From positions 3,348,001-3,412,000 of the forward strand of contig NZ_JAGVRK010000001.1 of the NCBI RefSeq assembly GCF_018283675.1: a stretch of 64,000 nt of DNA, written 5' to 3'. Positions 25,190-60,792 of this stretch are shown in pieces. The translations under genes and the position numbers were made by a program. Below the pieces are notes generated by a model. That model was given only the letters and a program-made list of their open reading frames with translations. It did not search any database and was not told where the DNA came from. Source of the DNA: Metabacillus flavus. GTDB taxonomy: Bacteria; Bacillota; Bacilli; Bacillales; Bacillaceae. Positions within the stretch are counted from its first letter, which is position 1. Each line of letters begins with the position of its first letter.

Positions 25190-25224
25190 CCGCTTCACCT
25201 CGATTGTTTTTAGCATTTTCGATT

Positions 25225-37776: not shown

Positions 37777-38187
37777 TCGCGCCCACTCCCTTTTTCACTT
37801 TTCTGAAATTTTACCATCATTTACAATTATGGACAATGAGGGAATGGTAAATTTAGTCTGTTTTAATAAGAAGGGTTTCACTAATGATCCGCATATAAAA
37901 TAAAGCATAAACTGCCCTATTGGACATTTTATGCTTTATATTGCATCTATGTGTGACTTAAATCATATATTTGTCAAATTATTAAGCATAAGTTTGCCAC
38001 TCTTACAGCCACATGAGATACAACTGTTTAATACATTATTATTACTGAAACTTTAATGGAATTTCCCTATTAATACAGGTCGAAATAGGCATTCTCCCTA
38101 ACTCTTGACATCTTTATGTTTTAAATAAATACTTCTGACATTAATATGATTTATACTTGTATTAACCTTCAATTATTTATTAAAATG
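37777..38187. other. Left junction of the accessory island
   Basis: This 411-base AT-rich gap has a hairpin ATAAAGCATAAA/TTTATGCTTTAT (37900-37911 and 37928-37939), possibly a terminator. GACAT-containing segments at 37923, 38107 and 38137 recall, in inverted orientation, those upstream of the first tniQ gene, so a left end of the Tn7-like element could lie here. That is weak evidence. Confidence 0.35.
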
Positions 38188-40023
38188 CTATTGATACTGC
38201 TCTATTCCACTCTCATAATTAGTCCAACCATCCTTATCTAATCGTGATAGTATCTCATCAGAACCAGATATTAACCTTGCAGGTATCGCGATCGTAGCTA
38301 AATGCGTTGGTCTACTCAAAGCAACATAGCCAAACTTCAAGGCTTTGATTGTTTCATCTCTTTCTGAGAAGTCAGAAATTAAGTAAGGATTCTTATGATT
38401 CCCTATAAGATATTGACTAAGTAAATCAAATATGTGGCGACGTTGCAAAAGAGTTCCATCCCGCGAAAATTCTCTAAACTCAGTATCTAAAAGCAGCAAT
38501 GTTGAGCGGTGTGTTTCACCTTTCACTGAATGAATCGTCCCTATATAAAATTCAAGCTCTTTCTCAGACATGTTTCCCCACTCTTCATGAGACAAAGACT
38601 GCTGAAGATATTGAATCTGCTTGTCTACATTAACACAAGTAAAACTAACCTTTTCATGGTTTGTTAATATACTCAAAATCTCCTCAAGATTATTTTTAAC
38701 TAAATAAGTTTTAGAATTGCTCTGCATCATTTCTTTAATACATATACCCATTTTTTCTTTATAAAGTGAATTTTCATTAACCATTATTCTTATTTCTTTA
38801 AACGAGGTATCTGTTTCCTTTGCTATTAACTTCAGAAGATAGTTATAAGTCTTCCTAATTCGACCTTCTCTGTTTCCAGTATTAACTGAAGGCCTAACAT
38901 AGCTAGTAAATAGATTTTCTAAATCAGCATGAAGTGGCGCTACTATTGCATCTTTTTTTTGAGAGTAAAAAAATGATTCAGACTCATCTTCGCATAAACT
39001 AATAAGCCCTCTATATTTTACCAATAAGTCATTCTCGTCTTCATAAATTATATAATACGGAGGGAACGAGACTACCGCCTCTGAAGACTCAAATGAATCA
39101 TACCTTTCAACACATACATTTTTCACTATATTAGACACGCTTGAGCCAAATCGAGAAGTTTGAGCAATTTCTCTTTTAGGTACTTCCAGCTCACTTGAAG
39201 GTACCCATACATCATTATTTCCTTCAAAAATATTATACAAAGCTTGGTATGGATCACCGAATTTTTGATAGATAACATTAGAATTTAAAAAAAGGTTATT
39301 TAACATCTCATATTGAAGCTCATTAGTATCTTGTGCTTCATCTAAAAAAACATAATTAAAACGGTTTTTAATAGCTTCCTGTAACTGTTCCTTGTATTTT
39401 TCGATATACCATTTCGATAGTTCTAAGCATTGATGATTTGTTAATATTCCCATCTCGAACATTCTTATAATGCTCTCTTCAAACTCTCTTCTATAAGAAT
39501 TCTTAGCATGACTTTCAATAGAAAGTGTGCCCTCATTACTAATTACTAAACTCGGTTTCATATTTTTAAGTCTAGGAGTTCTATAATTATAATTATATGG
39601 CTTATACTGCTCAAATATATTAAAATATATTGCCTCATATTCATCATCATCTAGAACCCTAATTTGTTTGTCTCCATTTATATAGTGATAGGCTTTTTTA
39701 GCAAAATACGTATTAAAAAATTCTTGAATAGTGCCAATAAAGTTAGGATGTTCTATATTATAGACCCCAACCTTTTTTAACCCTAACCGTATTTCGTCAA
39801 CTGCTACATTAGTATGTGTAATCAGACAAATACCTCTATTACTATAGATATTCTCTTTTAAAATATACGCACACTTTGCAATTAAAACTGTTGTTTTTCC
39901 AGTACCCGGTCCCGCAACTATATTGGCAGACTTATCAAAGGTTATCACTTCTTTCTGGCTATCAGAAAAGTCACAACCATCAGGTAGTAACAGAGACGTT
40001 ATTTCATTCATCTCGCTTCTCAT
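38188..40023 (-). CDS. UvrD/PcrA-like helicase, GajB-like
   Basis: A 611-residue superfamily 1 helicase. Walker A is GPGTGKTT near residue 39, Walker B is FLDEAQD near residue 220, and the C-terminal motifs include IGTIHSVKGET and GYVALSRPTHL. It overlaps the end of the upstream OLD-family nuclease gene by an ATGA junction, the gene pair that defines Gabija anti-phage defence. It is longer than the canonical GajB (about 490 residues), so it may belong to a divergent Gabija type. AAGGCAGG lies eight bases before the ATG. The partner gene carries a frameshift, so activity of the system is uncertain. Confidence 0.85.
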   Translation of the reverse strand: MRSEMNEITSLLLPDGCDFSDSQKEVITFDKSANIVAGPGTGKTTVLIAKCAYILKENIYSNRGICLITHTNVAVDEIRLGLKKVGVYNIEHPNFIGTIQEFFNTYFAKKAYHYINGDKQIRVLDDDEYEAIYFNIFEQYKPYNYNYRTPRLKNMKPSLVISNEGTLSIESHAKNSYRREFEESIIRMFEMGILTNHQCLELSKWYIEKYKEQLQEAIKNRFNYVFLDEAQDTNELQYEMLNNLFLNSNVIYQKFGDPYQALYNIFEGNNDVWVPSSELEVPKREIAQTSRFGSSVSNIVKNVCVERYDSFESSEAVVSFPPYYIIYEDENDLLVKYRGLISLCEDESESFFYSQKKDAIVAPLHADLENLFTSYVRPSVNTGNREGRIRKTYNYLLKLIAKETDTSFKEIRIMVNENSLYKEKMGICIKEMMQSNSKTYLVKNNLEEILSILTNHEKVSFTCVNVDKQIQYLQQSLSHEEWGNMSEKELEFYIGTIHSVKGETHRSTLLLLDTEFREFSRDGTLLQRRHIFDLLSQYLIGNHKNPYLISDFSERDETIKALKFGYVALSRPTHLATIAIPARLISGSDEILSRLDKDGWTNYESGIEQYQ

Positions 40024-42139
40024 AGGTTAAGCCTGCCTTCTCTTTGGCTAGACATTGCAGCATGTTTTATAGCCTCTCTCAAGTATGCTATATTACTGTC
40101 CTCCATGACTTTTTCTTTCCATTTTTCAGCTTTCGTTTCATCCTTTGTTATTTCATTTATTTCAATGGCAAGTCTCTGTGCCACTTCAGCTTTAGAAACA
40201 TTCTTATCATTAATAGGTTTAAATATCGAGTATGCAACTTCCTCTCGATTTTTTCCTTCTGACAAGCCTCTACTGAGATCATCAAAGAACTTTTTTCTCT
40301 TACCGGTATAGGGTTTTTATATCTTACTTCATGAACAGCTTTTAATAACAAAGGTGCAAGTTCACTTAATGCTAGACTGTACTCTAGAGTCCATTTGGGT
40401 GCTACATTTACACTTATATTAGCGCTGTACTCATTATACTTATCTTGGAATTGTATAAACTTTTGCTTTTCAATTGAATCTAAATATTGTGGGGTGATAT
40501 CTTTTTTGGTTATTTGAGTTAATAGATCTTCATTTGATGAATCAATATTAAACCCAAAATCAGTTACTAATTTTTTTACAGTAGAATATTCTTGTCCAAT
40601 CTTATCAACATCTATATCTTCAATCTCCTCATCACAATAAGCCAGAACATCATTTAGTTCGTTTATATCTTTAATTGCATATATTGATTTAATCTTCCCT
40701 TCAGTCTCGTAATAGGTCCATGCTTTTACGTCTAAATCGGTTATTATCGATAATGGTAGATTAATAGCAGGTAAGTCCATATCTTCCAACCATAAGTCAG
40801 ATCTAGAAAACAATTTTATATATCGCTCAAAAGAAGTTCCTTGAACATTAACAAGCGATATTCCATGTTTATGCAATGGATATCCTATCAAGTTCGCAAT
40901 TGCCGGTAATAAAAGCATCTCAGAATCACCTTCAACAAATATTACTCCTTTGGCGAAAAACAAATTGCTCTTTGTTGAATCTAGGAATCTTTCAATAAAC
41001 CCATAATCTGCTTTGTCCAACTTTGTATAAATTTCATCCAAAGGATAAGCTGTTTTATCATGCATTAAAATAACAAATTTAGGATCAATGGATGCTACAA
41101 GATTGGGACTATGTGATGTTAAGATGAATTGGTTTCGATTATTTCGCCTATCAAGCTCTTCTTCCAAATACTTAATAAGTCTTATTTGTGCTTGGGTATG
41201 CAGGTGTGCCTCTATCTCTTCAATTAAAGTAATATTTGGACCAATGAGTAGTTGATCTTCCTCCAAATTATTCAATAGAAGTAACTCCGCAGCAATAAAA
41301 AGTAAATTCAAGTTACCCAAACCCAAATTGATATCCTCATTTTCAAGACTTAATTTTCTTAAAATAGAGGTTAAGTCAGTCCTTGATACAGTAAATCTTG
41401 ATTTTGATTTACTTTTATCATGGATATCATAGAAATCACTTAGTAAAGTTTCTATATCACCAACTAAAGAGTGGCTATCAGCATACTCTTCCCTAAAATA
41501 TGATTCAATTTGATTGTTGGCTTCTTTCATAACAGTTACTAACTGATGTTCATTGCTATCCTTAGAAGAGTCAACATTATTAAATGCAGGATGGGCTTTC
41601 AATATATAGGCTAGTCTTGAACGAATTCCTGGTTTCAATTCTGTTTGAGCATCACGCATTGGTTTTAAGTATGTTGTTTTAAGTAGATTTTTAGCTGAAG
41701 CGTCTAGTCTATACTCGAAATTTTTATCTCCCGCTTGAACTTTTCTATCGATATATTCCTTTCCATTTTCGTTTTTCCTTCTATCTGCGCTAAGACAAAC
41801 TCTCAATTGGTAATGTTTATCTTCATCGAAAGATAACCATTCAAGAAACGTTCCTGCTTCTCGGTCAGATAAGTCAGTAAAAATACCTTCTATATAAAAA
41901 GAATCACTGTACATATCCTTGTCGTAACAATAAAAGTCCTCTTGGTTAATTTTTTCAAAGTCATCACTTACGCTTCCTAGTAAGTATCTAATCGCATCAG
42001 TTATCGCTGTCTTACCAGCATCATTTTCGCCTACTAATACATTAAAATTTGAATTAAAAAACACTGTGATTCCTGGGTTACCATCCTCTTTCATGCCAAA
42101 CTGCCTGAAATTTGTAAGACTTATACTCTTTAAATACAT
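40020..42139 (-). pseudogene. OLD-family ATPase/TOPRIM nuclease, GajA-like, with a frameshift
   Basis: An ABC-type ATPase joined to a TOPRIM nuclease domain. Walker A is GENDAGKT (37-44), the signature and Walker B region is LLLNNLEE then LIEEIEAHL, and the TOPRIM Glu is in FVEGDSE near residue 400. At an A5 run (40314-40318) the frame goes wrong. The original frame yields a foreign C-terminus ending at 40157, while the -1 frame continues as YTGKRKKFFDDLSRGLSEGK and on to 40020, overlapping the helicase start. One missing A restores a protein of about 706 residues. The ATG at 42139 follows GGGGGG. Mutation or sequence error is more likely than programmed shifting, because the run is short. 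Confidence 0.75.
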
Positions 42140-42187
42140 ATTTAACAACCCCCCATAATATTTTGCAACTGTAATTGTCGTACGCAT

Positions 42188-42824: not shown

Positions 42825-44186
42825 CTAATTTTTTTTCATCTTAATCCCAAGTTCCTTCAAAGAATTTTCCCACACATCCCTATACTCCTTTTCAAATCCC
42901 GTTATAACAAAAGGAAGTTCTCTCATAACTTTTTTCAAGCCCGGATATTGGTTAGAACTATGCATTTCATTTACAATTTTTCTAATCAGTTCAAATCTCT
43001 CCACCTTTATTCTGTCCCTATTTTTCTTTCTTATTGACACATTTAATTCTTTCATTTCTAGGTAGATCTCTGGAAAATACTTTTCAACAGAAACATAACT
43101 AATTCCTAAAACTTTTTTTAACTGCCTAAACACTATCAGTTCATTACTTTTTTTACACGATTCAAAAAAGTGTTTCACTTTGTTTTTCATTTTTAAAATC
43201 TCACTTGCAGCCTTCTTTTTCCCTATTTTATTTAAACTCGTTAAGCTAAATTCTTCTATTTCACCTACAATATTTTGAGTTAATAAATCTCCTATAGTAG
43301 TGTTACTTGCTAAAGAAAGTTTAAGTATAGTTTCTAGTTTAATATGTGAATGCGAATTTTTTATAAATCCCGTAAATGATTTCCTGGAAATCCCCACTCT
43401 ATCTTTAATTGTTTTTTCTTTCGGTGCAGGAAGCATATCATAGATTTTCCTGCAATTATTTATCAGACAGTCATTAGCTACTAGACTAACTTCAGTTGGT
43501 ACAACTAACATCTCTCCAATCAAACTTTCTGCCACATGTTTTTTCTGATTTTTAACTTCCCTATTTATTACTTGACCTAGCCATAGATTACAACATTGAC
43601 AATATCCTATAGTAGATTTAAACTTGATAAATTTTTGAAACGAATTACAAAATGGACATGTATGATGCAACTCTGTTTTATGAATAGTACAACAATTAAC
43701 ATGACAAATATTCCAAATTAACATTTCGTAAATATTGCTATTATTTATTCTCATATCCTCAAGACAATAACCACACCAGTACTTGTTTTGTTTTATAGAA
43801 CCTTTAGTATCTAACCATACACCATGGGGAACAAGTGTTAAATGTTTGAGGTCACTTCTACTGGTAAGATTATTTAAAATATCTATATTCATTGAAGCTG
43901 TTTGAGTATTCCCTAATAAACATGCGCCATCGTGAAAATTTTGGACATAATTTTGAGCGTAAATCCCAGAGTAATAGAGTTTTTTCTTCAATATAGGCAA
44001 CAATATACCCTTTATAAAGTCTCCTGTTGTTATACAATGTGCGCTAGAAATTCTCATAAGGTAGCTAGTTAAACCTTCCACGAATGGGGTGCCTATTCCT
44101 ATTGGTTCTAAGTTATACAATGTAGATCTATTAGAAGTGCTCGTATTATACACATGGTCGTTATACAAAGGGTCTACCTCTATCAC
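42825..44186 (-). CDS. TniQ/TnsD-like target-selection protein (second TniQ)
   Basis: A 453-residue member of the TniQ family, which brings Tn7-like transposition machinery to a target. The N-terminus YNLEPIGIGTPFVEGLTSYLMR is the TniQ beginning, and the zinc-binding motifs WCGYC, CCTIHKTEL, CPFC and CQCC lie at about 135-205. The C-terminal half is helical and lysine-rich and could bind DNA directly, as in TnsD. It is the last gene of the tniQ-tnsAB-tnsC-tniQ operon. The start is GTG at 44186, ten bases after AGGAGG. Compared with the first TniQ of the operon it is clearly homologous but diverged, so the two may select different targets. Confidence 0.85.
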   Translation of the reverse strand: MIEVDPLYNDHVYNTSTSNRSTLYNLEPIGIGTPFVEGLTSYLMRISSAHCITTGDFIKGILLPILKKKLYYSGIYAQNYVQNFHDGACLLGNTQTASMNIDILNNLTSRSDLKHLTLVPHGVWLDTKGSIKQNKYWCGYCLEDMRINNSNIYEMLIWNICHVNCCTIHKTELHHTCPFCNSFQKFIKFKSTIGYCQCCNLWLGQVINREVKNQKKHVAESLIGEMLVVPTEVSLVANDCLINNCRKIYDMLPAPKEKTIKDRVGISRKSFTGFIKNSHSHIKLETILKLSLASNTTIGDLLTQNIVGEIEEFSLTSLNKIGKKKAASEILKMKNKVKHFFESCKKSNELIVFRQLKKVLGISYVSVEKYFPEIYLEMKELNVSIRKKNRDRIKVERFELIRKIVNEMHSSNQYPGLKKVMRELPFVITGFEKEYRDVWENSLKELGIKMKKN

Positions 44187-44226
44187 TCTTCACTAACCTC
44201 CTCTTTAAGATTTATTCAAAGTTCAG

Positions 44227-45360
44227 TTAGTTACTTTCATCAATTCCAATTTTATCTCTTTTTGGATTCCTTTTCCCAACAGTTATTTTTTTTGTTTTTT
44301 CCCCTTTGTCGTTCTCATTGAGGCCTACATTGTATTTATGACCTTCTTTTTGAGACATACCTAATAGGTTTTGCAGTACTTCAATTTTCCCTTCATTGTC
44401 TTTAAACTCGTTTTCCCCATTAATAGCTTCTTCAGCAATTTTGTAGGCTTTTGATGGTGCGGGGGCATACTTCTCAATGATGTCTAGGTTTATACCATTT
44501 CCACTTTCTTTTATGGCCTCTAAAAAACATTTATCTATCCATTCTTTTAAAATCCCGACACAACCAACCGATCTTTCATAGAAAAATTCCCAATGATTCA
44601 ATAGACAACCTTCTTTTTCCTCGAATGGTAATAACGATTGGAAAGTATATACTATACCCTTAAATGCCATGAGATCTTTTTCAATTTTAATATCATATCT
44701 AGGGAAATGAATTTCAGATATCCTCCTACTCAGCTGTCCATTCATATCAAAAAATGCATTTAACTCATACGTCCCAAATAAAACAAATATGGAACCGGTA
44801 ATATTCGCCATGGATTTTATAAAATCCATTTGATCTTGTATTCGCCTTCCGCTTCCCATTTTTAATAAATGTTGAGCTTCATCTAACAATATTACTTTTG
44901 TTTTTCTATATCTAATTGCATTTTCTAGTGACTTCCTAAGTTCTGGAGAGGTTGTGGGTTTATAATTAGATATCTTACCTCTATAAGAATTACTTTGATC
45001 AACTTTATTACCAATTAAAGGCTCATTAAATTCTATTAGTATTCTTTGATAAAAGTCTTTCCAGTTGAACTTACCGTTATCAGGAGAAGGTAATTCTAGC
45101 GATACTACCGGGATCATTCCCCGATCTACTTTCATGTTATCATTACTCAAAAATAATAATTGGCTTTTAACCTTTGCATAAAGTGTAGACTTTCCTACTC
45201 CAGTGGGTCCAAATACGATGAATACTTTTCCTTCTTTTGAAGTCTCAATCTTTTCCATTAAATCAGTGTATACATGATTTAAAATTGGATGATTGATGTT
45301 TCGGATGATAAATTGTTCTTTTATTTTATTTTCGTGGTTAAATTCAATATCATCTTTCAT
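44227..45360 (-). CDS. tnsC: TnsC-like AAA+ ATPase, transposition regulator
   Basis: A 377-residue AAA+ protein that in Tn7-like elements links target complex and transposase. Walker A is GPTGVGKST (51-59), Walker B is ILLDEAQHL (157-165) and a sensor-like LFGTYEL follows near 194-200. The C-terminal third is polar and ends with a basic tail that probably contacts the transposase. Its ATG directly follows the TAA of tnsAB, with GAGGAG in the end of that gene, so the two are translationally coupled. Confidence 0.9.
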   Translation of the reverse strand: MKDDIEFNHENKIKEQFIIRNINHPILNHVYTDLMEKIETSKEGKVFIVFGPTGVGKSTLYAKVKSQLLFLSNDNMKVDRGMIPVVSLELPSPDNGKFNWKDFYQRILIEFNEPLIGNKVDQSNSYRGKISNYKPTTSPELRKSLENAIRYRKTKVILLDEAQHLLKMGSGRRIQDQMDFIKSMANITGSIFVLFGTYELNAFFDMNGQLSRRISEIHFPRYDIKIEKDLMAFKGIVYTFQSLLPFEEKEGCLLNHWEFFYERSVGCVGILKEWIDKCFLEAIKESGNGINLDIIEKYAPAPSKAYKIAEEAINGENEFKDNEGKIEVLQNLLGMSQKEGHKYNVGLNENDKGEKTKKITVGKRNPKRDKIGIDESN

Positions 45361-48048
45361 TTAAAACTCCTCAAACAATTCCAGATTTTTAAATACTTCA
45401 TTATTATTGCTTAAAGTTTCATTAATAGGATATGGAGGATGGGATTTAAACTGGGGTTCAGGTGCCACGTGATCATAATTATTATTTGTTACTTTTTTTA
45501 ATTCATTAGCTTTTGATTGTAACATCTCAAATTGAATATTATCTTCCATATTATTTATAAAAGCTGCGATTTTACTTGCATTGATTGAATAATTTTTCGA
45601 ATTATCTTTTTTAATTTTCCTTAATTCAGTTGTAATAAATCTAATCTCTTTTTCTGAGAGGTCTTTAAATATAGAATAGTACTCAGAAATACACTTTACC
45701 CATTTTTTATTAACATATGCATATGCAATTCCCATATTAAATGGGTCATATCTTACTTTCACTTTAGTTTTTACTAATTCTGGATTTTTAAATACATCAT
45801 TCCAATAATAGAGATAGTTTATTTTGACTCCAGTATTTGTGTGAATAACTACTTCTCCGTTTTTTGTAGATGGTAACGTTAAAATTTCAAATAACGGATC
45901 ATACGGAATATATTCATGATCTCTTTTACCACTTAATTCAATGCCTAATTTAAAAACTTCTGAAGGGGACAAACCTAATGAAGGATGTTCCAATGAATCG
46001 TATACTTCGTGGAAGAAATGGTTTAATGCTTTATGTAAATCCGGCAATGTCCATATAGCGAGGTTTTTTGGGTTTACTTTTTTGGTAACCTGCCTTACAT
46101 TTTTCATGTTTTTTGTGTTTCCTTGAAGATTATGGATTAATGAAGTATTAGTTGTACCGAACATCCTTTCTAAAACTGACCCATACCTAGGTTGTGCAGA
46201 TGGCCTTCTCTTTATTTCTTTTTCATACATAGCAAGTAATGTTTCAAAATAAACACTATGGAACTCCTTACCATTATCAACTACGATTTGCTGAGGTAAT
46301 CGGTTATGTATTCTGACACATTCTCTGAAAACCATTAAACATGACCTATAACTGGGCTCTTCAAAAGACAGAAAAAAAGCTAGTACTTTGCGTGAATAAG
46401 CATCCGAGAGAAGAGTTAAATATGGTCTTCCTAAATTTTTCCCACTATGGGAATGTACAAGTTCAATATCCAACTCTGTATGGTCTAGATGAGCTATGTT
46501 AAAAGGAAAATCTCCATGTCTCGGTGTAGTAAATTCCAACTCCCAATAAAAGGATTTTTCTTGATAGGCAGCCTTATCTCCCTTTCTTTTTCTTATTTGC
46601 TGAACTCTAGGACGTAATTTTATATATTTACAAAACGTTTGTAAACTAGGAGCTAATAGGCCTTTTTCTTCACAAACCAATTTAAACTCCCCCCATACTA
46701 CCGACCTATTTTTCTCAGTACTTGTTTCATACCTGTTTTCTATGAAGTCTTCCATTAATTCTTTAACTTGACTAGATAATCTCTCTGTTCTATTACCCTT
46801 ATTTTTGTCATTTGGAAGTAAACCTACATATCCATTCCCCACTAACTTTTCTGCTTTTCTATATTTAGAAACCCAATCTCGGACTAGTCTTTTGCTTGGC
46901 TTTTCTTTCTCTTTGAATGTTCCATTAATATATTCCCTAACGTAAACTAACCTGTAATTAGCCACTTGATAATCAGATTCACTAGCAGCTATAATAATTT
47001 CCATTAAGTCGCTTTCTATCTCTTTAGATCTCTGGTCACTTGATATTCGACCTTTTTGGATTTGTTTTTTAATCAAATCCTTCGGAAGTTCATTATATTT
47101 ACCATCCTCTGTCATTAGCATTATAGTCGATTTGCCAACATTAATAATTTTCCAATTTATTGAATCCCAAATAATACTGTTTCCTACTTCGAGAGAGATT
47201 TTATTGACTTTAGGCAAGTCATTTTTACAGTCGATGATATTTTTATGCATTGTAGCATGCTCTTTATCTAAATAAACAAAAACTTTATTCGCTTCAGGTA
47301 AAACTTCTTCATTTAAATTTACATAAATAGACTGTTTAATGATTGATGTATAGATACTGTCAGCATTTATCTGTCCTTTTAATGTTTTAATTAATTCATT
47401 TAAGGAAATACCAGGCTCATTAGTAACTATTTCTCTTATTAGTAGTACATCATCTCCAGGTACACAAAGAAAATCAATTTTTCGTAAGTAACTATCTAAG
47501 AATGTATAATTTCTATGGAGTTTCCAATTGATCTTTTCACTTGTACATACAGTAAAATTAAGACCAAACTGTTTAGCAAATTCTTCTCCAGGAGGGCACC
47601 GCCAAACCCCCTTTTCATCTTTAATATATTTCCACGGCTGTTTAGAAGAAAGGTATTGCAAGTCCCCTTCATTTTTCCATTCTTCCCACCCTGCACTACT
47701 TTTTCGAATTACAAAGAAATCTGGAGTGTACAAGACCCCTCTTCTCTTCCCACTATTGTCTACGAAATTAAGTTTTATTTGATTTGGTTGATCATAGTAT
47801 TCAAGCACTTCTGTATCGTTTTCCATCATTAATATAGCAGGACCTTCAACCTTACCGCTCTCCCATTGAATGTAGACTCCCATTTTTTTGCTTGGATATT
47901 TTCCAGTAAGACTAACATTTCCACCTCCCACATTTCGGGAAGGCTGCATAAGCCTAATGTTGTTATTAATAAAATCTTGAGTTTTTTTTTCAATATTATT
48001 CATCTCACACCACATCTTAAATGAGGACATTTCCAAATTTATCACCAT
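45361..48048 (-). CDS. TnsA-TnsB fusion transposase
   Basis: An 895-residue fusion. Residues about 40-210 are a TnsA-type restriction-like endonuclease domain with Glu68, Asp110 (YTPDF) and Glu123-x-Lys125, which cuts the 5' ends of the element. Residues about 290-895 are a TnsB-type DDE integrase with helix-turn-helix regions, then Asp522 (HLDHTELD), Asp591 (VVDNGKEF) and Glu627 (SVLERMFG), and a Mu-type C-terminal barrel. Both catalytic sets are intact, which predicts cut-and-paste movement. Fused TnsAB is known from some Tn7-like and CRISPR-associated transposons. The start is uncertain: ATG 48048 lies within an AAAGGATGGTGAT ribosome site, and TTG 48036 or ATG 48030 are alternatives. Confidence 0.9.
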   Translation of the reverse strand: MVINLEMSSFKMWCEMNNIEKKTQDFINNNIRLMQPSRNVGGGNVSLTGKYPSKKMGVYIQWESGKVEGPAILMMENDTEVLEYYDQPNQIKLNFVDNSGKRRGVLYTPDFFVIRKSSAGWEEWKNEGDLQYLSSKQPWKYIKDEKGVWRCPPGEEFAKQFGLNFTVCTSEKINWKLHRNYTFLDSYLRKIDFLCVPGDDVLLIREIVTNEPGISLNELIKTLKGQINADSIYTSIIKQSIYVNLNEEVLPEANKVFVYLDKEHATMHKNIIDCKNDLPKVNKISLEVGNSIIWDSINWKIINVGKSTIMLMTEDGKYNELPKDLIKKQIQKGRISSDQRSKEIESDLMEIIIAASESDYQVANYRLVYVREYINGTFKEKEKPSKRLVRDWVSKYRKAEKLVGNGYVGLLPNDKNKGNRTERLSSQVKELMEDFIENRYETSTEKNRSVVWGEFKLVCEEKGLLAPSLQTFCKYIKLRPRVQQIRKRKGDKAAYQEKSFYWELEFTTPRHGDFPFNIAHLDHTELDIELVHSHSGKNLGRPYLTLLSDAYSRKVLAFFLSFEEPSYRSCLMVFRECVRIHNRLPQQIVVDNGKEFHSVYFETLLAMYEKEIKRRPSAQPRYGSVLERMFGTTNTSLIHNLQGNTKNMKNVRQVTKKVNPKNLAIWTLPDLHKALNHFFHEVYDSLEHPSLGLSPSEVFKLGIELSGKRDHEYIPYDPLFEILTLPSTKNGEVVIHTNTGVKINYLYYWNDVFKNPELVKTKVKVRYDPFNMGIAYAYVNKKWVKCISEYYSIFKDLSEKEIRFITTELRKIKKDNSKNYSINASKIAAFINNMEDNIQFEMLQSKANELKKVTNNNYDHVAPEPQFKSHPPYPINETLSNNNEVFKNLELFEEF

Positions 48049-48075
48049 CCTTTCTACGCTATTTATTCTAATTCA

Positions 48076-49386
48076 TTATTTCTGAATATTCAAACATTTT
48101 AAGTAAATCTTTCTTTCAAATTCTCCTCGTAAAAGTTGATTAGAATTCAGAAATAGCTCTATATTTCTTCTTGTAATAGGCACTTCTTTTTGAACAAGTT
48201 CAACAATTACTTCTTTGATTACCTTTTCTAGTCGTATACGATTGGCTTGCTTTTTTTGATTTATATGTGAACTATATCTTGCAGAAATTTGTTTGCATAT
48301 AAATGGCATTTTATTATAAAGTAACCTCTTATTTATCCCTATTTTTTTTGATGACTCTTCCATAGAGATGGGTTGTTCTAACTCTAAGTACGCTTCTAAG
48401 ATTATTTCAAGCTGACTGTAATTAAGCTCTCTCCTTTTCAAAGTAACATCTTGCGGATTCTTCACCTTCGGAACCACTGATAAATTTCCGCTATAAAAAA
48501 AATCTTTAAATGAGATTCCAAAGAGGTAGCATAATTCAAGTAGTTTGAGTAGTTGAGGGATAGACTTTCCTGTTTTCCATTCATGGATAGTAACCTTTGG
48601 AAAACCCAAATCCTTTTGTCTGTATCCCTTTTTTATATATTCATCAATCAAAGAAACTAGCTTTTCTTTAATAACTTCTCTTTTTAAAACGGGATAAGTA
48701 TGAGCACCACTAATAAACCCCCCTAAACTTTCAGTATAAAAAGATTCCTCTTCTTTCTTATTTCTTTTAAAACCAGGGTATGAATCAATTTGTGTTAAAT
48801 TGTTCTTGCAATATGGACAAAATCCGTTAACTAAACTCCTATGTAGTATTGGAATTTCTTTACTGCAGCTAGGACATTTATTAACTAAATATATATTGTG
48901 TTCTGTGCAACAAGATACTGGTTCTAAATACCATAGAAGTGGATAATAGAAAGTATGGTACTTATTTTGAAAGTCATTTAAACAAAATGGACACCAATAT
49001 AAGTTTTTATTAAACAACCCTTTATTAGAAATTACGCCCCTCCATTTATAAAGAGTCGAATCAATTAAGTCACTATTGGAAGTTAATTTTTCTAATACTT
49101 TTACCATATTATAGGCATTTGAATTAACTCCATTTAAACTGTGAGCATTGTCAAAAAATCGATTTCCGCCAAATTTTATACTTCTATTAATATAGTCCTT
49201 GTTAAGTGCTGGAGCTAAAATGCAATTAAATAATTTACCAAAACTTAAACAATGAGCCTCAGCCATCCTAACTAAATAGCTAGTTAGACTTTCCGAATAT
49301 TTAGAACCCTTACCAATTAGTTCTAAATTGTAAAGTGAGGTCCGACTTTTTTGATTACCTATATTATCTATTGAGTTTATATTCAT
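48076..49386 (-). CDS. TniQ-family target-selection protein (first TniQ)
   Basis: A 436-residue TniQ protein and first gene of the transposition operon. The TniQ beginning YNLELIGKGSKYSESLTSYL is followed by zinc motifs WCPFC, CCTEH, CPSC and FCPYC (about 135-205). A segment near 255-280 (RQKDLGFPKVTIHEWKTGKS) looks like an HTH of the Cro type, and a helical C-terminal domain follows. It shares the domain order of the second TniQ at 42825. The coding region ends 27 bases before tnsAB. The ATG is preceded by only a weak GAGG site. Confidence 0.85.
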   Translation of the reverse strand: MNINSIDNIGNQKSRTSLYNLELIGKGSKYSESLTSYLVRMAEAHCLSFGKLFNCILAPALNKDYINRSIKFGGNRFFDNAHSLNGVNSNAYNMVKVLEKLTSNSDLIDSTLYKWRGVISNKGLFNKNLYWCPFCLNDFQNKYHTFYYPLLWYLEPVSCCTEHNIYLVNKCPSCSKEIPILHRSLVNGFCPYCKNNLTQIDSYPGFKRNKKEEESFYTESLGGFISGAHTYPVLKREVIKEKLVSLIDEYIKKGYRQKDLGFPKVTIHEWKTGKSIPQLLKLLELCYLFGISFKDFFYSGNLSVVPKVKNPQDVTLKRRELNYSQLEIILEAYLELEQPISMEESSKKIGINKRLLYNKMPFICKQISARYSSHINQKKQANRIRLEKVIKEVIVELVQKEVPITRRNIELFLNSNQLLRGEFERKIYLKCLNIQK

Positions 49387-50837: not shown

Positions 50838-51965
50838 TTACTTTACATTATGAATAACAATTTCATTTTTTCCTTTGTAAGAATCAAATTCACCAGTAAA
50901 TACATAAGTATTACCTTTATTTATATAAGGGGTTTCTATTCCTTTAAAAATCACCCCATCAATTGTCCGTTCTCCATCTGTAAGAATTAAAAACTTGGTT
51001 CCACTGTTTTTATCGTATGAAAACTGGTTTACTGTAGCTTCTAACTTTATACGGTCACCTATCTCTGCATTATCTTTTATAGCTTTAAGAGAAGAGTATG
51101 ATGCATTATTGCTTTCTCCTTTTACCCATTTACTGAAAAAAAATATTCCCGTTGCCAAAATAAGAACAACCGATATAAGTAATCCATACGTAACGGATTT
51201 CTTTAACTTCCTTATTGGTTTCTCTTGATTCTGAAACTTCTTATACTCATTTTGAACTCGCATGCTCTTTATATTCTCTTCTATAGAATCTAACTTCTTA
51301 TCAAAAAACTCTAAAACTTCATCGATCTTTATTTCGTTTGTAATCGAAATATTATCAATTACTTCGTGAAGAACATCTTTTGAGAATATTATAGAATTAC
51401 TGTTTAACGGATATTTTACCGCTTTCTCAAGTATAGTATTTATTTCATTGTTTATTTGATCTAAAAAAATGTGGTGTTTAAAATAATTCTCCTTATTCGA
51501 TTTTTCCCATCCAATCATTTTCCCTTCAATTTCCTTCTTAGTAAAGCCGAAGTGAAGGACGGTAAAGCCAATCATTTTATACGGATCTGATAGCGTCGGA
51601 ATTTTCAAGGATTTTATGTATCCATTAAATTCATCTATATGTTTCTTCACTTGATTTAAGGGATTTTGCTGGGTGTTTATGATTTTAAGTGCTCCGTTAG
51701 AATAGACCTCACGAATGTTCTGTATGCTCCAATTCTTTACCTCTACTAATCTAAATCCATATTTCGGAGAAATGATTAAAAAATCAGGATCATACTTTCC
51801 AATGGATGGATGAGCTATGACAAATGTATCGTCAGGCAAATATTGAGAAAGTAAATTTCCTACTTTTAGTTCTCCTTCTAATCCTTTTATATCACGTCTT
51901 CTATTGTTACCCCTTGATTCTTCTAAAGCTTTTTCTAGTGGTTCCTTTCCTATAAACACTGCCAT
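50838..51965 (-). CDS. NERD-domain protein with membrane helix and C-terminal OB-like domain
   Basis: A 375-residue protein unlike the two chromosomal NERD paralogues. The N-terminal NERD domain has Glu31, Asp61 (YDPDF) and Glu75-x-Lys77 (VEVKN). A helical region (about 170-250) leads to a single membrane segment (about 259-279), and the last 80 residues (GDRIKLEATVNQFSYDKNSG onwards) look like an OB-fold nucleic-acid-binding domain, presumably outside the membrane if the NERD domain is cytosolic. Nuclease activity is possible because the key residues are kept. Its place in the island between defence genes suggests a defence role, which is inference. Confidence 0.8.
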   Translation of the reverse strand: MAVFIGKEPLEKALEESRGNNRRRDIKGLEGELKVGNLLSQYLPDDTFVIAHPSIGKYDPDFLIISPKYGFRLVEVKNWSIQNIREVYSNGALKIINTQQNPLNQVKKHIDEFNGYIKSLKIPTLSDPYKMIGFTVLHFGFTKKEIEGKMIGWEKSNKENYFKHHIFLDQINNEINTILEKAVKYPLNSNSIIFSKDVLHEVIDNISITNEIKIDEVLEFFDKKLDSIEENIKSMRVQNEYKKFQNQEKPIRKLKKSVTYGLLISVVLILATGIFFFSKWVKGESNNASYSSLKAIKDNAEIGDRIKLEATVNQFSYDKNSGTKFLILTDGERTIDGVIFKGIETPYINKGNTYVFTGEFDSYKGKNEIVIHNVK

Positions 51966-52356: not shown

Positions 52357-53043
52357 TTAATCTGAAAGCAATCCTGTTAAGAAAGTAACACCGCCACGAA
52401 CAATCATATTCCTTATTTCTTCTCCTGTTAGGCATAGCCAGTAGCTTTCCATTTTATTTTCAATTAATTGCGGGTCATCTCCAATTACATATGTGGAGTT
52501 CTTGAAGGCTTCCTTAAAATTAGGCTTTAACGCATACCCCATATAATCATCTTCTCTAAACACACACATCCAATAAATCCCTTCATGAGCAACCATATTA
52601 CGAATACCATTAAAGAGATCTGCTATATTAATTATATTAAGTGGTTGTCCATCCATTGCGTGGATCCCCGTTTTTAGCCTATCCTGGTCTTCTGAGTTAA
52701 TGTAGTTAGAAAAAAAATCCCTAATAATTTTGAATTTATCAGTGATTGCTTTTTGATTAGTTGCCTTGTAGAGCGCTTCGATGGTCATAATCCAATACTG
52801 AACTTGAATACCGTCTAGTTTCGTGGATTGATTCAGTTTAAAAACATTGTCTGCCATTGATATTCCTCGTACTAGTTGATGCATAGCTCGTTTACTAACC
52901 AAGTCATGATGTTCACATAAGTAGATAAATTCCTCAGCCTCTTTCATGGTTTTAAAAAAGGGTTTAAAGAATGAAATATATACCGAGAAATTACACTTGA
53001 ATGATTCAGCACTTAATCGTTTTCTTATGTCTTCGGGAATCAT
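52357..53043 (-). CDS. HEPN-like domain protein of unknown function
   Basis: A 228-residue, mostly helical cytosolic protein with no full family match that I know. Near residues 145-154 it has NGIRNMVAHE, the R-N-xxx-H signature (Arg148, His153) of HEPN domains; many HEPN proteins are RNases in toxin or anti-phage systems. A single HEPN protein without an adjacent nucleotidyltransferase is also seen in ApeA-like systems. The ATG follows a weak GGAG-like site. Its neighbours are a NERD protein and a type I restriction locus. The HEPN call rests on the motif and helical context. Confidence 0.6.
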   Translation of the reverse strand: MIPEDIRKRLSAESFKCNFSVYISFFKPFFKTMKEAEEFIYLCEHHDLVSKRAMHQLVRGISMADNVFKLNQSTKLDGIQVQYWIMTIEALYKATNQKAITDKFKIIRDFFSNYINSEDQDRLKTGIHAMDGQPLNIINIADLFNGIRNMVAHEGIYWMCVFREDDYMGYALKPNFKEAFKNSTYVIGDDPQLIENKMESYWLCLTGEEIRNMIVRGGVTFLTGLLSD

Positions 53044-53317: not shown

Positions 53318-53953
53318 TCACTTTACATATCTAAGTATTTCAACGGCTGCCTTAAAACGTTTATCTGGGTCGCTGGAGTGTAAAGCTTCATCCAAAACCT
53401 CCAGGGCTTTGTTTATAATGTCTTCCGGCACCTCACGCGGTATTAGCTGAGAAGGATGTTTTAGATCTGACTGAGAATATATTAGGGCTTCTAATTCCGC
53501 ATCTTCTAACGGATATTTAAAGCGCGTCACTGTACCTCGGTGCCGGAGCAGTTCTTGAAGCTTAGAATTCAATTCATCGAACTTCACAACCGTGAGCGGC
53601 TTAAATTTCCGTTGGTGACACATTCCATCCTCGTTGTTATCGAATTCCTCAACGTACTCATATGCGCCAACTTCTACAATATGAACGTTATCTAGGTGAC
53701 CATGGAATAGAGCGACAGCGCCCTCTTGCATGGTATCAACAAAAGCCCAAATGTTACCCAAGTCAACGCTGATAGTTCGCGGATTATCGTAGGTGTGGCC
53801 ATAAGCTTTCTGTAGACGTATCCGGATTTCTTCTTTGGATACTCCTGCTAGGTTTCCTATGCGAGGCCACCCTATAGCGATGAAATTCCCTTGAATAAAC
53901 TCATTTAACCTTACTGTACCATGGGGACGGGTTTTGATTTGAAAGATGTTCAA
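53318..53953 (-). CDS. PUA-like reader-domain protein, restriction-associated
   Basis: A 211-residue cytosolic protein. The N-terminal half (NIFQIKTRPHG, then QGNFIAIGWPRIGNLAG, and WAFVDTMQEGAVALFHG near residues 65-85) resembles the PUA/EVE-like domain at the front of several modification-dependent restriction enzymes. The C-terminal half is helical, without nuclease motif. It may be the specificity part of a restriction protein that stands alone. The start is TTG at 53953, seven bases after AAAGGAGG; the longer frame to 53980 contains that site. The neighbours are a serine recombinase and a type I restriction system. The role is inferred from fold resemblance. Confidence 0.6.
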   Translation of the reverse strand: MNIFQIKTRPHGTVRLNEFIQGNFIAIGWPRIGNLAGVSKEEIRIRLQKAYGHTYDNPRTISVDLGNIWAFVDTMQEGAVALFHGHLDNVHIVEVGAYEYVEEFDNNEDGMCHQRKFKPLTVVKFDELNSKLQELLRHRGTVTRFKYPLEDAELEALIYSQSDLKHPSQLIPREVPEDIINKALEVLDEALHSSDPDKRFKAAVEILRYVK

Positions 53954-54134
53954 TTCTAATCCTCCTTTTGCCTCACGCAACGTGACGCTTATTTAATTTT
54001 ATAATACAACACTGTTTTATCGCTGTCAATCCCTGAGGTACGCTGACGCACATGCTATATACCGGTTTTTTAGCAAATAATAATGTTAAAACCCGGAAAT
54101 TTGGTTAGGATGCACAGCAAAAAAAGAAGCTACC

Positions 54135-54695
54135 CTACTGGTCAGCCCCTATTTTACGCTTCGCTCTTATCATGGTACTCTTAGAAATTCCCGTAAGATC
54201 CTGTACCTGTTTATACGAATACTCCCCCAACAAAGATAGAGCGTGGTCTATTTGCTTCCTCGTATACTTTGCGGGTCTACCTTCGCGGAAGTCCTCACGC
54301 TGCCGAGCTATCGCCTTTCCCTCTTGAGTTCTCTCTACAATCAAGTCCCGTTCGAACTCCGCCAACCCCGACATGATTGTAAAAATAAGGCGTCCGGTAG
54401 GCGTGTTCTCAATCAGCCCCATATTTAATACATGTACCTTTACGTCGCGATGAAATAGGTCCTTGACGATCGTTAGTGCCTCAGAAGTAGACCTAGCGAA
54501 ACGGTCCAGCTTTGATACCACAAGAGTATCGCCTCCCTTTAACTTGGACAGCAGCTCTTGAAACTGCGGACGATTCACCTTGGTTCCCGTGAACTTCTCC
54601 GAATATATTTTCTCACAGCTTTCAGATTTTAGCGTGTTCAATTGCATCTGCAAATCTTGGCCGACTGTCGATACCCTCGCATATCCATATTTCAC
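54135..54695 (-). CDS. Serine recombinase of the resolvase/invertase family
   Basis: A 186-residue small serine recombinase that catalyses site-specific inversion or resolution. The catalytic Ser lies in GYARVST at about residue 9, followed by the conserved KLDRFARS and the long helix with [23 protein letters not shown]. The C-terminal HTH ([20 protein letters not shown]) binds the crossover site. The start is GTG at 54695, seven bases after GGGAG, which gives the usual [10 protein letters not shown] beginning. It sits 129 bases beyond the end of hsdS, where such enzymes can invert specificity segments, but no second hsdS or inverted repeat was seen. Confidence 0.9.
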
Positions 54696-54823
54696 AAAAC
54701 CGCTCCCTTTTATCACTTTTTGACACTAAGTTATGACAGCGGCATATACCTTGATATTATTACAACAGGAAAATAGTATAAATACTCTCAAGTTTTTACA
54801 CTATAAAACCTCTAACCATATGG

Positions 54824-56098
54824 CTAAAGGCTTGGCACCAAACAAGAATTTAATGTAACTTGCCCGTTCATGAGCATTGGCAAGAGCCATTCACGAAAAT
54901 TAGTTAGCTCATCTATCTCTTTTGCAATTGAAGTGATTTTATTATAAATAGGCTCTACTAAGTCATAATATTTTTCTAATGTCTGTTCATCCGGTACAAC
55001 AAATATTGTCTCATCAACGACTGTCTTGTTTATGTGAGGCTGTTGTGCGCCTGTACGTAAACTCATATAACGATTGACTTGAGACAACATGAATGGATAT
55101 AAAAATGCTGTTTTAAATTTTGAAGTGGGTATTATAGCGACTACAGATTGATTAAAGCAAGCATCTATTTCCAATATAGAAGGACGTATATATCGGGTTA
55201 TAGATAACAGGACCGCCCCAGCTTTAACAAACGAAGTAGTAGAATTATTTATTCCAGACTCTGTAATTGATTTCTCAGATTTTATTATCGGTGATGTGGC
55301 GATTTCTCCAGAACTAAGCCAAGGAATATTACCATTCCAATATTTAGAAACTTTTGTGTCAGGTGTTCCGCCTAGCAAAGTAATAAATTCGTTACTAATT
55401 AAAGAATCTTCCCAATCTTTTGGTATCTCACGTTTCAGCCGACTATTCCATACCATTTCTCCACCAGATGAGTGATAAGGTTTACCTTCAACATTAGGAA
55501 AATCAAATTGTACAAACCAATAATCATATATAGTTTTAGCCATCTGTTCCAACTCAGCAATAATCCTTTTATTAAGGCGGATTTTTTTCTCCATGCTATA
55601 TAATAAATCTCCAATACGTACCTGCTCGTCATAATCAGGCAAATACAAGTTTAAAAAAGAAAAAATGTCCTCATTGAAGCTTGCCCTAGTTGTAATAAAG
55701 GCATTATTAGTTACCGTTTTTCTAAACAAGTAGCTACGCAAATAAAACGCAAGGTACTTGTAATATACTATCCCTTCTGTTTTAGGGCGCAAACGCTTTG
55801 TAAATCCACTGTATGTGGCCGTGGGATAATCTTTTAGGGCTACACAACTCATTGCAAGTTCATTAATCGTTTCACTGGTGCGGGTAACTAGAATATCCCC
55901 TTCCTTTATGGAATAGGTATTTTGTTCTTTTTCCGTTGTATTCATTAAATCCGGTAAAACATCTGGTAAAAAATAATTATTGAAAACTGTACTAAACGAA
56001 ACAAAAGGGCTTCCATGTCCAGCTTGTTCTTTTTTAGTACTAATTCCTGAACTCATATCATATAAATCAGAGAATGCATATTTTTTAATATTTTTCAT
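54824..56098 (-). CDS. hsdS: Type I restriction-modification specificity subunit
   Basis: DNA sequence recognition subunit of the HsdR2M2S1 complex. The 424-residue protein has two target-recognition domains (about 1-150 and 225-380), each followed by a conserved helix (the first contains QVRIGDLLYSMEKKIRLNKR, the second NKITSIAKEIDELTNFREWL). This is the complete two-domain layout for a bipartite target. It overlaps hsdM by 14 bases. The recognised sequence cannot be predicted from reading alone. Confidence 0.93.
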   Translation of the reverse strand: MKNIKKYAFSDLYDMSSGISTKKEQAGHGSPFVSFSTVFNNYFLPDVLPDLMNTTEKEQNTYSIKEGDILVTRTSETINELAMSCVALKDYPTATYSGFTKRLRPKTEGIVYYKYLAFYLRSYLFRKTVTNNAFITTRASFNEDIFSFLNLYLPDYDEQVRIGDLLYSMEKKIRLNKRIIAELEQMAKTIYDYWFVQFDFPNVEGKPYHSSGGEMVWNSRLKREIPKDWEDSLISNEFITLLGGTPDTKVSKYWNGNIPWLSSGEIATSPIIKSEKSITESGINNSTTSFVKAGAVLLSITRYIRPSILEIDACFNQSVVAIIPTSKFKTAFLYPFMLSQVNRYMSLRTGAQQPHINKTVVDETIFVVPDEQTLEKYYDLVEPIYNKITSIAKEIDELTNFREWLLPMLMNGQVTLNSCLVPSL

Positions 56099-57764
56099 AA
56101 AGCAAACCTTCTAATCCCTTTTTAATCTCGACTTCCAACTCCCGACCTTCAGCAAACAAACTCTCCAGCCTTTTTGTAAAACCAGACATTTTTTCTGTAA
56201 ATTCCTCATGTTTCATTTCTACGTATTCAATTTTCACATCAAAATATTGTCCTGCAGAAAAAGACAACTTCTTTGACTCAATATCCAGATAATCCACTAC
56301 TACACAGAAATCATCTACTGGTTTAGCAGAGTTGAATGTGTCGATAATGTCATTTATCTCTTCAGGTCTTAGGACTGTTTTTTGATTTTTACCATCCCCT
56401 TTGACTTTTCTTCCCTTTTTCGAAGCATCCATTAAAACAACCTTGCCATCGTTGTTCTCTTTGTCAATGAAGAGAATAGAAACATTTGTGCTTGTTGTTG
56501 CAAAGATGTTGGAAGGCATGGAAATTACACCACGCAGCATTCTTTCTTTCACAAGATGTTCACGGATTTTCTTTTGAATACCGGTTCCAGCGGTTAAAAA
56601 ACCAGTCGGTACAACAATTGCCGCTTTGCCCTTTTCATCAAGAGAATATATTATGTGTTGTAAAAACATTAGATATATCGCCATGCCGCTCTTGTCTTTA
56701 TTGGGTACATTTGGTACACCTACCCAAAATCGTTCTTTATATTTTTCTCCTGTAAGTGTGTCTCTATTGTCGCTGAAATCCATATTAAATGGAGGATTTG
56801 AAACAATGTAATTATATTTCATAAGTCCGTTTTTCTGACGGTTCAGATGGCGTGGATATAGTAGTGTATCGTCATGTACTACATTACCGAGTGAATGAAC
56901 AAGGTTATTTAATATTAGATTCAGGCGTAGGAATTCATTGGATTTTTGAGAAATATCCTGGGTGTAAATGGTACAGTTATCTTCCCCGATTTCATGCGCA
57001 AGCGAAAGAACCAAAGTTCCAGTACCAGCAGCCGGATCGTAAACAGTCACATTCTGTGCGCCATCCGGTACCATGATACGGGCAATTATGTTGGCTATGA
57101 CATGAGGTGTGTAATATTCTGCGTACTTACCAAAATCTTTATTGTAGTCCTTTATAAGGTATTCAAACACAACGGCAAAGAAATCATATTTCTGTGCAAA
57201 TGCTTCCTCAAAACTAAAGCCAACTATTTTGTCAATCAAGGCGCGGCAGAAGTCGGATTTTTTATTGATTTCAATTATATACTGCGAGGGGGAGTCAAAC
57301 AGACGGATCTTCTCCTCTCCACCAGTTTTAACCGAAAATACCCCAATATTAGAATTAGCAATATCGATGAGAGTATCATCGAACAATTCATAAAATTGAT
57401 AAGGCTTACCATCAGATCTCTTCATCTCATCATCATACTTTCGGTTAAAAAGGTATGAAATGAAATGTTCCTTCTTTAACCGGGCAATAGTAGGTGGTAG
57501 GCTGGCAAGCAGCATCATGTAATCCATATCCCGCATTTGGCTTAAATGCTGTTCAAGTTCACCAATGGTAGTAAAACTATTTAGCTGTGTATCTGCCAGT
57601 TTTACCTCGTACAAAAATTTGTCATTTAAAAACTTGTACAAAAAAACTTCTGTAATTATCTTATATTCACTACTGGCATTACCAAGGCCATAGTTTGCAC
57701 AAACAGTCTTAAGGTCATCAATCATTTTTTTGGTTTTTGCCATTATATCCTGAGTGTTTATCAA
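56085..57764 (-). CDS. hsdM: Type I restriction-modification methyltransferase subunit
   Basis: An N6-adenine methyltransferase of 559 residues. An N-terminal helical domain (about 1-150) precedes the catalytic domain with the SAM-binding motif DPAAGTGTLVLS near residue 245 and the NPPF active site (SNPPFNMDF) near 330. The length is normal. It begins inside the end of hsdR (ATGA overlap) and overlaps hsdS, so the three genes are strongly coupled in the order R-M-S. Confidence 0.95.
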   Translation of the reverse strand: MINTQDIMAKTKKMIDDLKTVCANYGLGNASSEYKIITEVFLYKFLNDKFLYEVKLADTQLNSFTTIGELEQHLSQMRDMDYMMLLASLPPTIARLKKEHFISYLFNRKYDDEMKRSDGKPYQFYELFDDTLIDIANSNIGVFSVKTGGEEKIRLFDSPSQYIIEINKKSDFCRALIDKIVGFSFEEAFAQKYDFFAVVFEYLIKDYNKDFGKYAEYYTPHVIANIIARIMVPDGAQNVTVYDPAAGTGTLVLSLAHEIGEDNCTIYTQDISQKSNEFLRLNLILNNLVHSLGNVVHDDTLLYPRHLNRQKNGLMKYNYIVSNPPFNMDFSDNRDTLTGEKYKERFWVGVPNVPNKDKSGMAIYLMFLQHIIYSLDEKGKAAIVVPTGFLTAGTGIQKKIREHLVKERMLRGVISMPSNIFATTSTNVSILFIDKENNDGKVVLMDASKKGRKVKGDGKNQKTVLRPEEINDIIDTFNSAKPVDDFCVVVDYLDIESKKLSFSAGQYFDVKIEYVEMKHEEFTEKMSGFTKRLESLFAEGRELEVEIKKGLEGLLYEKY

Positions 57765-60772: not shown

Positions 60773-60792
60773 AGCCATTCCTCCAAAGTGAT

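Follow-up and report, generated by a model that had tools for sequence, protein, structure and literature searches.

Tn7 makes a 5-bp target duplication on insertion. With its selector TnsD it is directed to glmS, and PMC2918618 reports that it inserts ~20 bp behind this gene. Loci with two TniQ/TnsD genes are also known; 998 of them are reported in PMC10293859, where they are explained by duplication followed by new function. Here we analysed 64,000 nucleotides of Metabacillus flavus DNA (contig NZ_JAGVRK010000001.1, positions 3,348,001 to 3,412,000; hereafter the window, whose positions we use throughout), in which a preliminary description had noted a tniQ–tnsAB–tnsC–tniQ operon. Very probably, this operon drives an intact Tn7-like transposon that belongs to a Bacillota family attached to ssrA, the gene for transfer-messenger RNA (tmRNA). 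Homing would be the task of a TnsD-like TniQ, probably the upstream TniQ1, and the downstream TniQ2 may be a second target selector.

The order of the four genes and the retention of the catalytic residues were as first described. All four genes lie on the minus strand and have Pfam support: tniQ1 (48076–49386; 436 amino acids, TniQ E = 8.5e-13), the fusion transposase gene tnsAB (45361–48048; 895 amino acids), the AAA+ regulator gene tnsC (44227–45360; 377 amino acids, TniB and AAA_22) and tniQ2 (42825–44186; 453 amino acids, TniQ E = 3.7e-7). The span given earlier, 42825–49386, has the right gene coordinates but covers only a minor part of a 25.7-kb element (37952–63694). Both TniQ matches exceed the curated Pfam cut-off, and at E ≤ 0.001 the tniQ1 and tniQ2 loci are the only TniQ matches in the 4.03-Mb genome (G000, two contigs). 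In the TnsAB fusion, Tn7_TnsA-like_N and Mu-transpos_C are above the cut-off and rve is slightly below it. The best matches among solved structures are 9bw1_M for TnsAB (E = 5.7e-238) and the TnsC chain 8fcu_Q for TnsC (E = 9.8e-77). Seven residues are invariant in a 16-row TnsAB alignment: D522, D591 and E627, which we take to be the TnsB triad, and E63, D110, E123 and K125, presumably the TnsA nuclease residues. TnsAB is ~40–47% identical to its cyanobacterial relatives, and its search matches, rather than a TnsAB tree, assign it to the fusion branch that contains the type I-B CRISPR (clustered regularly interspaced short palindromic repeats)-associated transposons (CASTs).

We mapped the ends of the element by comparison with an insert-free relative from the same genus, G299. 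The G299 alignment runs through 37952 and resumes at 63695, with the two matches overlapping by six G299 bases. Because the alignment breaks there and CTATG flanks both termini (37947–37951 and 63695–63699), we define the element as 37952–63694 (25,743 bp) with a 5-bp target-site duplication. The element is therefore complete, not the decayed fragment that the preliminary description had allowed for. Its left end starts TGTGACTTAAATC and its right end finishes CGATTTAAGGTACA, which gives TGT...ACA termini; at the left boundary CTATG is followed by TGTGACTTAAATCATAT, and at the other CGATTTAAGGTACA is followed by CTATG. A pattern scan placed TnsB-like sites in the ssrA-distal left end (37952–38160) at 37957+, 37980+, 38107− and 38137−, with 0, 2, 3 and 3 mismatches, and in the ssrA-proximal right end (63519–63694) at 63519+, 63545+, 63569−, 63621+, 63648+ and 63671−, with 3, 2, 1, 2, 4 and 3 mismatches, the latter sites spanning 63519–63689. 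Single matches with three or four mismatches are common by chance, as a shuffled 25.7-kb sequence yields 49–67 matches at ≤4 mismatches. At ≤2 mismatches, the 64-kb window contains six matches, five of which are at the element ends and one (49098) within tniQ1. The scan found no internal cluster at ≤3 mismatches. We therefore read the 25.7 kb as a single element, as the clusters are confined to its outer ends; nested or stacked elements within the window were ruled out on the same ground. G+C content is 34% in the element and 43% in the part of the window left of it. We also observed that another genome of the genus, G300, retains the right end almost unchanged, together with two right-hand cargo stretches at ~97% identity; it gave no TnsAB match, and transposase-like frames, read by eye, lie to the left of these stretches. 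Outside the left end, in the chromosomal flank (37897–37942), lies a palindrome that looks like two paired TnsB sites and is shared with G299; it probably remains from an older element that had inserted at ssrA.

At the right boundary lies ssrA, whose 3′ part occupies 63725–64000 on the minus strand and which the preliminary description had missed. The gene crosses the right edge of the window, and the whole of it (63725–64089; G000:C1:3411725–3412089) was called by ARAGORN (locus L050, 6725–7089, minus strand) and matched Rfam RF00023 with E = 4.4e-89. The TGT of the element begins 30 bp past the CCA end of the tmRNA, within the 25–35 bp expected for an ssrA-homing family, and is directly preceded by a hairpin resembling the ssrA terminator. 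Because ssrA is a common integrase site (as reported in PMC10121019) and a small resolvase is among the cargo, we considered that a tyrosine or serine integrase had put the island at ssrA, with the tns operon as a passenger. We regard this as extremely improbable: the flanks show the 5-bp CTATG only, no repeat of the ssrA 3′ end is present at the left boundary, and the TGT...ACA ends with their TnsB-like sites stand exactly at the boundaries, as they do in 12 of 20 elements tested, including this one.

We searched for TnsAB homologues in 299 genomes of the order, 80 of the family and a named genome collection (the best 80 of 235 matches). The order tniQ–tnsAB–tnsC–tniQ recurs across the Bacillota relatives; in the non-Bacillota loci examined we found no tniQ upstream of tnsAB. 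We located ssrA in 36 carrier genomes: 31 in a set of 33 genomes, whose other two members (G299 and G300) lack tnsAB, and three and two in further sets. In 23 of these carriers, the tnsAB contig also holds ssrA, which is then without exception upstream on the same strand, 2.0–46.8 kb away. The ssrA flanks of 34 of the 36 carriers (G081 and G175 were left out) were scanned by one script, and 33 could be anchored. In 28 of these 33, the first 150 bp behind the tmRNA contain at least two TnsB-like sites, with TGT at 27–34 bp where it was found; the 34th carrier, G315, has an end-like sequence behind ssrA by eye. As a control, we applied the same site pattern, with a slightly different scan start, to 30 ssrA loci, the best-scoring (and hence intron-free) ones among 41 sampled genomes of the order. 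All three carriers in this set were positive, whereas only one of the 27 other genomes (G026) had at least two TnsB-like sites; a further non-carrier, G024, had a single site and TGTGAC. Identical 5-bp duplications were present at both ends of the 12 elements mentioned above (G000, G303, G275, G246, G319, G309, G021, G178, G085, G032, G132 and G308) and likewise in G577. The remaining duplication matches in this test were judged to be chance, as they were without end-like sequence. Together, the boundaries, the 5-bp duplication, the 30-bp spacing and the same spacing in relatives indicate that this Bacillota family uses ssrA as its chromosomal attachment site.

Some ssrA loci contain more than one end. 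A second end-like sequence starts at most ~10 bp past the left end in G246 (L065 and L066), G309, G085 and G032 (loci including L071, L058 and L064). Judging from these sequences, tandem stacking of elements at ssrA does occur. In G320 (Paenibacillus mellifer; L153 628–1475) and G323 (P. tianmuensis; L203), a further, complete tmRNA gene is found immediately inside the end-like TnsB sites that follow the first one. The two tmRNA genes of G320 differ in their tag (GKQQQPYALAA versus GKQNNNLAFAA), and the transposon seems to carry its own ssrA in these two genomes.

The ssrA genes themselves helped to narrow the DNA that is recognised. Of the 33 ssrA genes that could be anchored, 14 have an insert of ~270–290 bp in the T-loop, and 13 of these 14 are among the 28 positives. 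Group I introns are known at the T-loop position of ssrA (PMC11915505), and from this placement the insert is group-I-intron-like; an Rfam scan of three such loci reported tmRNA alone and no separate group I intron. In the intron-type genes, the element end lies at an unchanged distance behind the second exon. As the distance stays constant although the insert splits ssrA, what both forms share near the site is no more than roughly the final 16 bases of the gene. In G571 (L280 13130–13270), a family end lies ~30 bp behind a fragment resembling the ssrA 3′ end, after a glycine dehydrogenase gene, and is followed by a decayed tniQ2. This fragment matches the ssrA 3′ end at 24 of 32 positions (the 99.9th percentile for random sequence is 16), and no complete ssrA is present there. 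The intron-bearing genes and the G571 fragment would confine recognition to approximately the final 15–30 bp of ssrA. By analogy, the contacts of Tn7 TnsD, reported at about +28 to +54 bp from the insertion point (PMC2918618), would coincide here with the last ssrA bases.

Both TniQ proteins are TnsD-like throughout. We modelled them with AlphaFold2 from 28-row alignments, and the models (pLDDT, the predicted local distance difference test, 86.8 for TniQ1 and 85.1 for TniQ2) matched TnsD chain 8v32_J of a TnsD–TnsC–DNA complex best and over the full length (E = 5.3e-28 and 2.9e-23, respectively), followed in both cases by the CAST TniQ 8fcu_P. Sequence searches agreed with TnsD for TniQ1 (best solved match E = 4e-45); TniQ2 (best E = 5.2e-34) scored about equally to TnsD and 8fcu_P. 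The preliminary description had noted a helix-turn-helix-like segment in the first TniQ. This segment is present, but it is not exclusive to that protein, as both models have C-terminal helical parts; these gave weak, non-significant matches to XRE-type repressors beside the strong TnsD match. In a quick, midpoint-rooted TniQ tree of 93 rows, a branch with a Shimodaira–Hasegawa-like approximate likelihood ratio support of 96 sets TniQ1 and 32 other upstream TniQs apart from all other rows. TniQ1 and TniQ2 are well separated in this tree, so that the outcome raised earlier, one clade with a shared site, did not occur. TniQ1 was also more conserved than TniQ2 in 211 of 253 element pairs for the core and in 218 of 253 for the C-terminal part (23 elements, after two with short TniQ2 were dropped). 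The identity of TniQ1 exceeded that of TniQ2 in nine of nine pairs (39–72% versus 28–48%), and the length of TniQ2 ranges from 307 amino acids, perhaps a truncated form, to 611. On this conservation, the upstream TniQ is most likely the ssrA selector. The distance to ssrA proved uninformative as a clue to which TniQ reads it, as the distances of the TniQ1 subclades overlap (27–34 bp).

Several observations weigh against the ssrA-homing model as a whole. First, five of the 33 carrier ssrA genes have no such end (G318, G317, G322, G311 and G382), and two of the positives, G370 and G320, lack the TGT and have weak or odd TnsB-like sites. Second, ssrA and tnsAB are on separate contigs in six of the 28 positives (G251, G309, G021, G321, G313 and G323), which makes the link of the end to that tnsAB uncertain, except in G309 and G021, which have matching duplications. 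Third, the insert-free site of G299 is not pristine, as a TnsB-site-like palindrome lies ~35 bp behind its ssrA. Fourth, the TnsD structure matches have high root-mean-square deviations (10.5 for TniQ1 and 11.2 for TniQ2), and the 29 downstream TniQs, which split into groups of 26 and 3, have long branches, the TniQ2 of the window having one of the longest. Fifth, conservation is the one basis for assigning ssrA to TniQ1, and the function of the element is read from sequence. Finally, G318 (Lysinibacillus xylanilyticus) has an ssrA-type TniQ1 and yet its element sits in comGA, so kinship of TniQ1 does not fix the site of every copy.

The G318 element is a 39.4-kb relative within comGA with TATCC at both ends (G318:C1 161200–200633; a composite of L185, L115 and L186). 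Joining its flanks restores an uninterrupted ComGA frame, and the ssrA of this genome has no element end. We tested whether comGA is an ssrA look-alike and rejected this, as 13 of 32 matches are within chance. In G317 (uncultured Firmicutes), a right end starts 31 bp past a tRNA-Arg gene, ~11 kb upstream of tniQ1; this end likely belongs to the G317 operon, with the left end beyond the contig. The left flank in G322 resembles sequence 3′ of ssrA.

In the simplest reading of the conservation data, the conserved TniQ would select the conserved site and the diversifying TniQ would select others. Tentatively, and with less than even confidence, we propose an all-protein transposon with two pathways, in which TniQ1 homes to ssrA and an exchangeable TniQ2 leads to varied second targets, such as comGA in L. 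xylanilyticus. If so, the two-TniQ layout would parallel the CRISPR or TnsE pathway by means of protein alone. We searched 261 genomes for further insertions with the TniQ2 of the comGA element. Matches at 26–31% identity were found in G322, G535, G504 and G577, and otherwise only two decayed pieces at 72–73% identity. In G571, the piece is located behind the ssrA-like fragment, and comGA, 8 kb away, is uninterrupted; for the piece in G467, no element end was seen by eye in the 1.5 kb inspected. Neither piece decides the role of TniQ2. A lone TniQ1-related TniQ in G504 (G504:C1:858157–859347; L234) is 32% identical to the TniQ1 of G318, with no tnsAB or tnsC match in the surrounding 60 kb. TniQ1 matched 24 plasmid records, of which 23 are cyanobacterial and one is from Caballeronia, with no Bacillota plasmid among them, and it matched no phage; there is thus no direct sign of a second pathway that targets plasmids.

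The roles could be swapped: TniQ2 would recognise ssrA, and the conserved TniQ1 would have some other universal role, for instance at a second target or as a structural bridge. In favour of this, the likeness to TnsD extends along the whole of each TniQ, and TniQ1 alone is no predictor of the site: between the comGA element of G318 and the ssrA element of G535, TniQ1 is 51% identical, compared with 40% for TnsAB and TnsC and 29% for TniQ2. We consider swapped roles unlikely, as TniQ2 diverges more by both measures of conservation and varies in length although the ssrA target is near-constant. A joint ssrA-targeting complex of TniQ1 and TniQ2, without a second pathway, seems quite unlikely. Apart from two loci cut by a contig end (L110 and L112) and two broken operons (L057 and L067), the Bacillota elements that we examined have both genes, and most readable sites are ssrA, as such a complex would predict. 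By contrast, the two proteins differ in evolutionary rate, and the G318 element carries both TniQs within comGA, where the target bases resemble ssrA only at chance level (13 of 32, versus 16 at the 99.9th percentile for random sequence).

Of the options that the preliminary description had raised, two protein-guided pathways fits best, as each TniQ resembles TnsD along its whole length. That description had also seen no CRISPR–Cas system and had pointed to the machinery of type I-B CASTs. Both observations were borne out: the best solved matches are chains of 9bw1, 8v32 and 8fcu, three entries with one TnsC sequence in common, and Cas1 and Cas6, the cas families searched genome-wide, gave no match in the whole genome. 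We found no CRISPR-like spaced-repeat array in the 64-kb window, to which the array search was confined, and no cas family among the element proteins in Pfam, PADLOC and NCBIfam scans. The other option raised, a CAST whose cas genes have been lost or whose guide system is unlinked, would account for this kinship and for the sequence score of TniQ2, which is slightly higher to 8fcu_P than to TnsD. We regard it as very improbable. Besides these negative results, neither TniQ is of the short, Cascade-docking kind: TniQ1 has 436 amino acids, and TniQ2, with 453, aligns to TnsD over residues 19–426, compared with a total of 329 amino acids for 8fcu_P. The gene order also recurs in Bacillota relatives, in which cas genes were not searched for. 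The Cascade genes with an array and the short TniQ that define the I-B2 and I-D CASTs were thus not found here.

We propose that a TnsD-like TniQ, most likely TniQ1, binds roughly the last 15–30 bp of ssrA and recruits TnsC. TnsAB would then cut the element out and paste it ~30 bp downstream of ssrA in a fixed orientation, leaving ssrA intact. TniQ2 may, less certainly, act as a second protein-only selector whose target differs between elements, and an RNA guide would play no part. In this manner, the element would ferry a defence cargo of Gabija and type I restriction–modification genes.

Tn7-like cargo has been reported to be rich in defence genes (PMC8649781), and the present cargo is in line with this. 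To the left of the operon, on the minus strand, are genes for a GajB-like UvrD helicase (38188–40023; PADLOC GajB E = 1.1e-214) and a GajA-like OLD-family nuclease (40157–42187; PADLOC GajA E = 1.8e-191). As the GajA match covers only positions 1–562 of the 622-position profile and a frame overlaps it, gajA may be frameshifted; this frame (40020–40265, within a gajA region of 40020–42187) has no Pfam match and might be the remainder of GajA. Between the operon and the right end, also on the minus strand, are a NERD-domain protein (50838–51965; Pfam NERD E = 4.5e-11), a protein without a family match in Pfam, PADLOC or NCBIfam (52357–53043), a weak PDC-S02-like candidate defence protein (53318–53980; PADLOC E = 1.6e-10), the small serine resolvase (54135–54716; Pfam Resolvase E = 1.9e-39) and the type I restriction–modification genes hsdS, hsdM and hsdR (54824–60778; PADLOC, NCBIfam and Pfam). 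An open reading frame for a 337-amino-acid protein on the plus strand (62156–63169) had no PADLOC or Pfam match. Elsewhere in the window, we noted a 123-bp direct repeat in three copies (4828–5196) and an 875-amino-acid protein (22589–25216), which we take to be fused spore-germination receptor subunits (GerA-type and GerAB-type).

Because the family has a two-selector layout, no CRISPR system was found and the ends are mapped, the role of each TniQ is directly testable. As ssrA is found in nearly all bacteria (according to PMC11915505), a TnsABC–TniQ1 set could be developed into a tool for chromosomal insertion in Bacillus and its relatives. In the literature searched, which missed the closest work on this branch, we found no report of a Tn7-like element that homes to ssrA, and the main text of PMC10293859 does not mention tmRNA or ssrA. 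Within that literature, dual TniQ–TnsD loci are already known and ssrA as a Tn7-like site is apparently new.

Compared with these dual loci, the present element has two large copies and a defined attachment site. It resembles type I-B CASTs (9bw1, 8v32 and 8fcu) in its TnsAB fusion, its two TniQ-family proteins and its best solved matches, but differs from them in that no Cascade or CRISPR was found, both TniQs are long and TnsD-like, one tniQ is upstream of tnsAB and the site is ssrA. It shares an RNA gene as attachment site with I-B2 and I-D CASTs, which are reported to use tRNA genes (PMC11406308). With ssrA integrase islands, which can carry defence genes (PMC10121019), it has the genomic address in common; unlike those islands, it uses a different enzyme and does not duplicate the ssrA 3′ end. 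It differs from Tn7 in that TnsA and TnsB are fused, ssrA replaces glmS and the tns operon is separated by cargo from the target-proximal end; a Pfam scan of the element proteins found no TnsE. Like Tn7, it has a TnsD-type selector and a 5-bp target duplication and inserts shortly behind a conserved gene, at 30 bp rather than ~20 bp, and it would add ssrA, a non-tRNA RNA gene, to the safe havens of Tn7-like elements.

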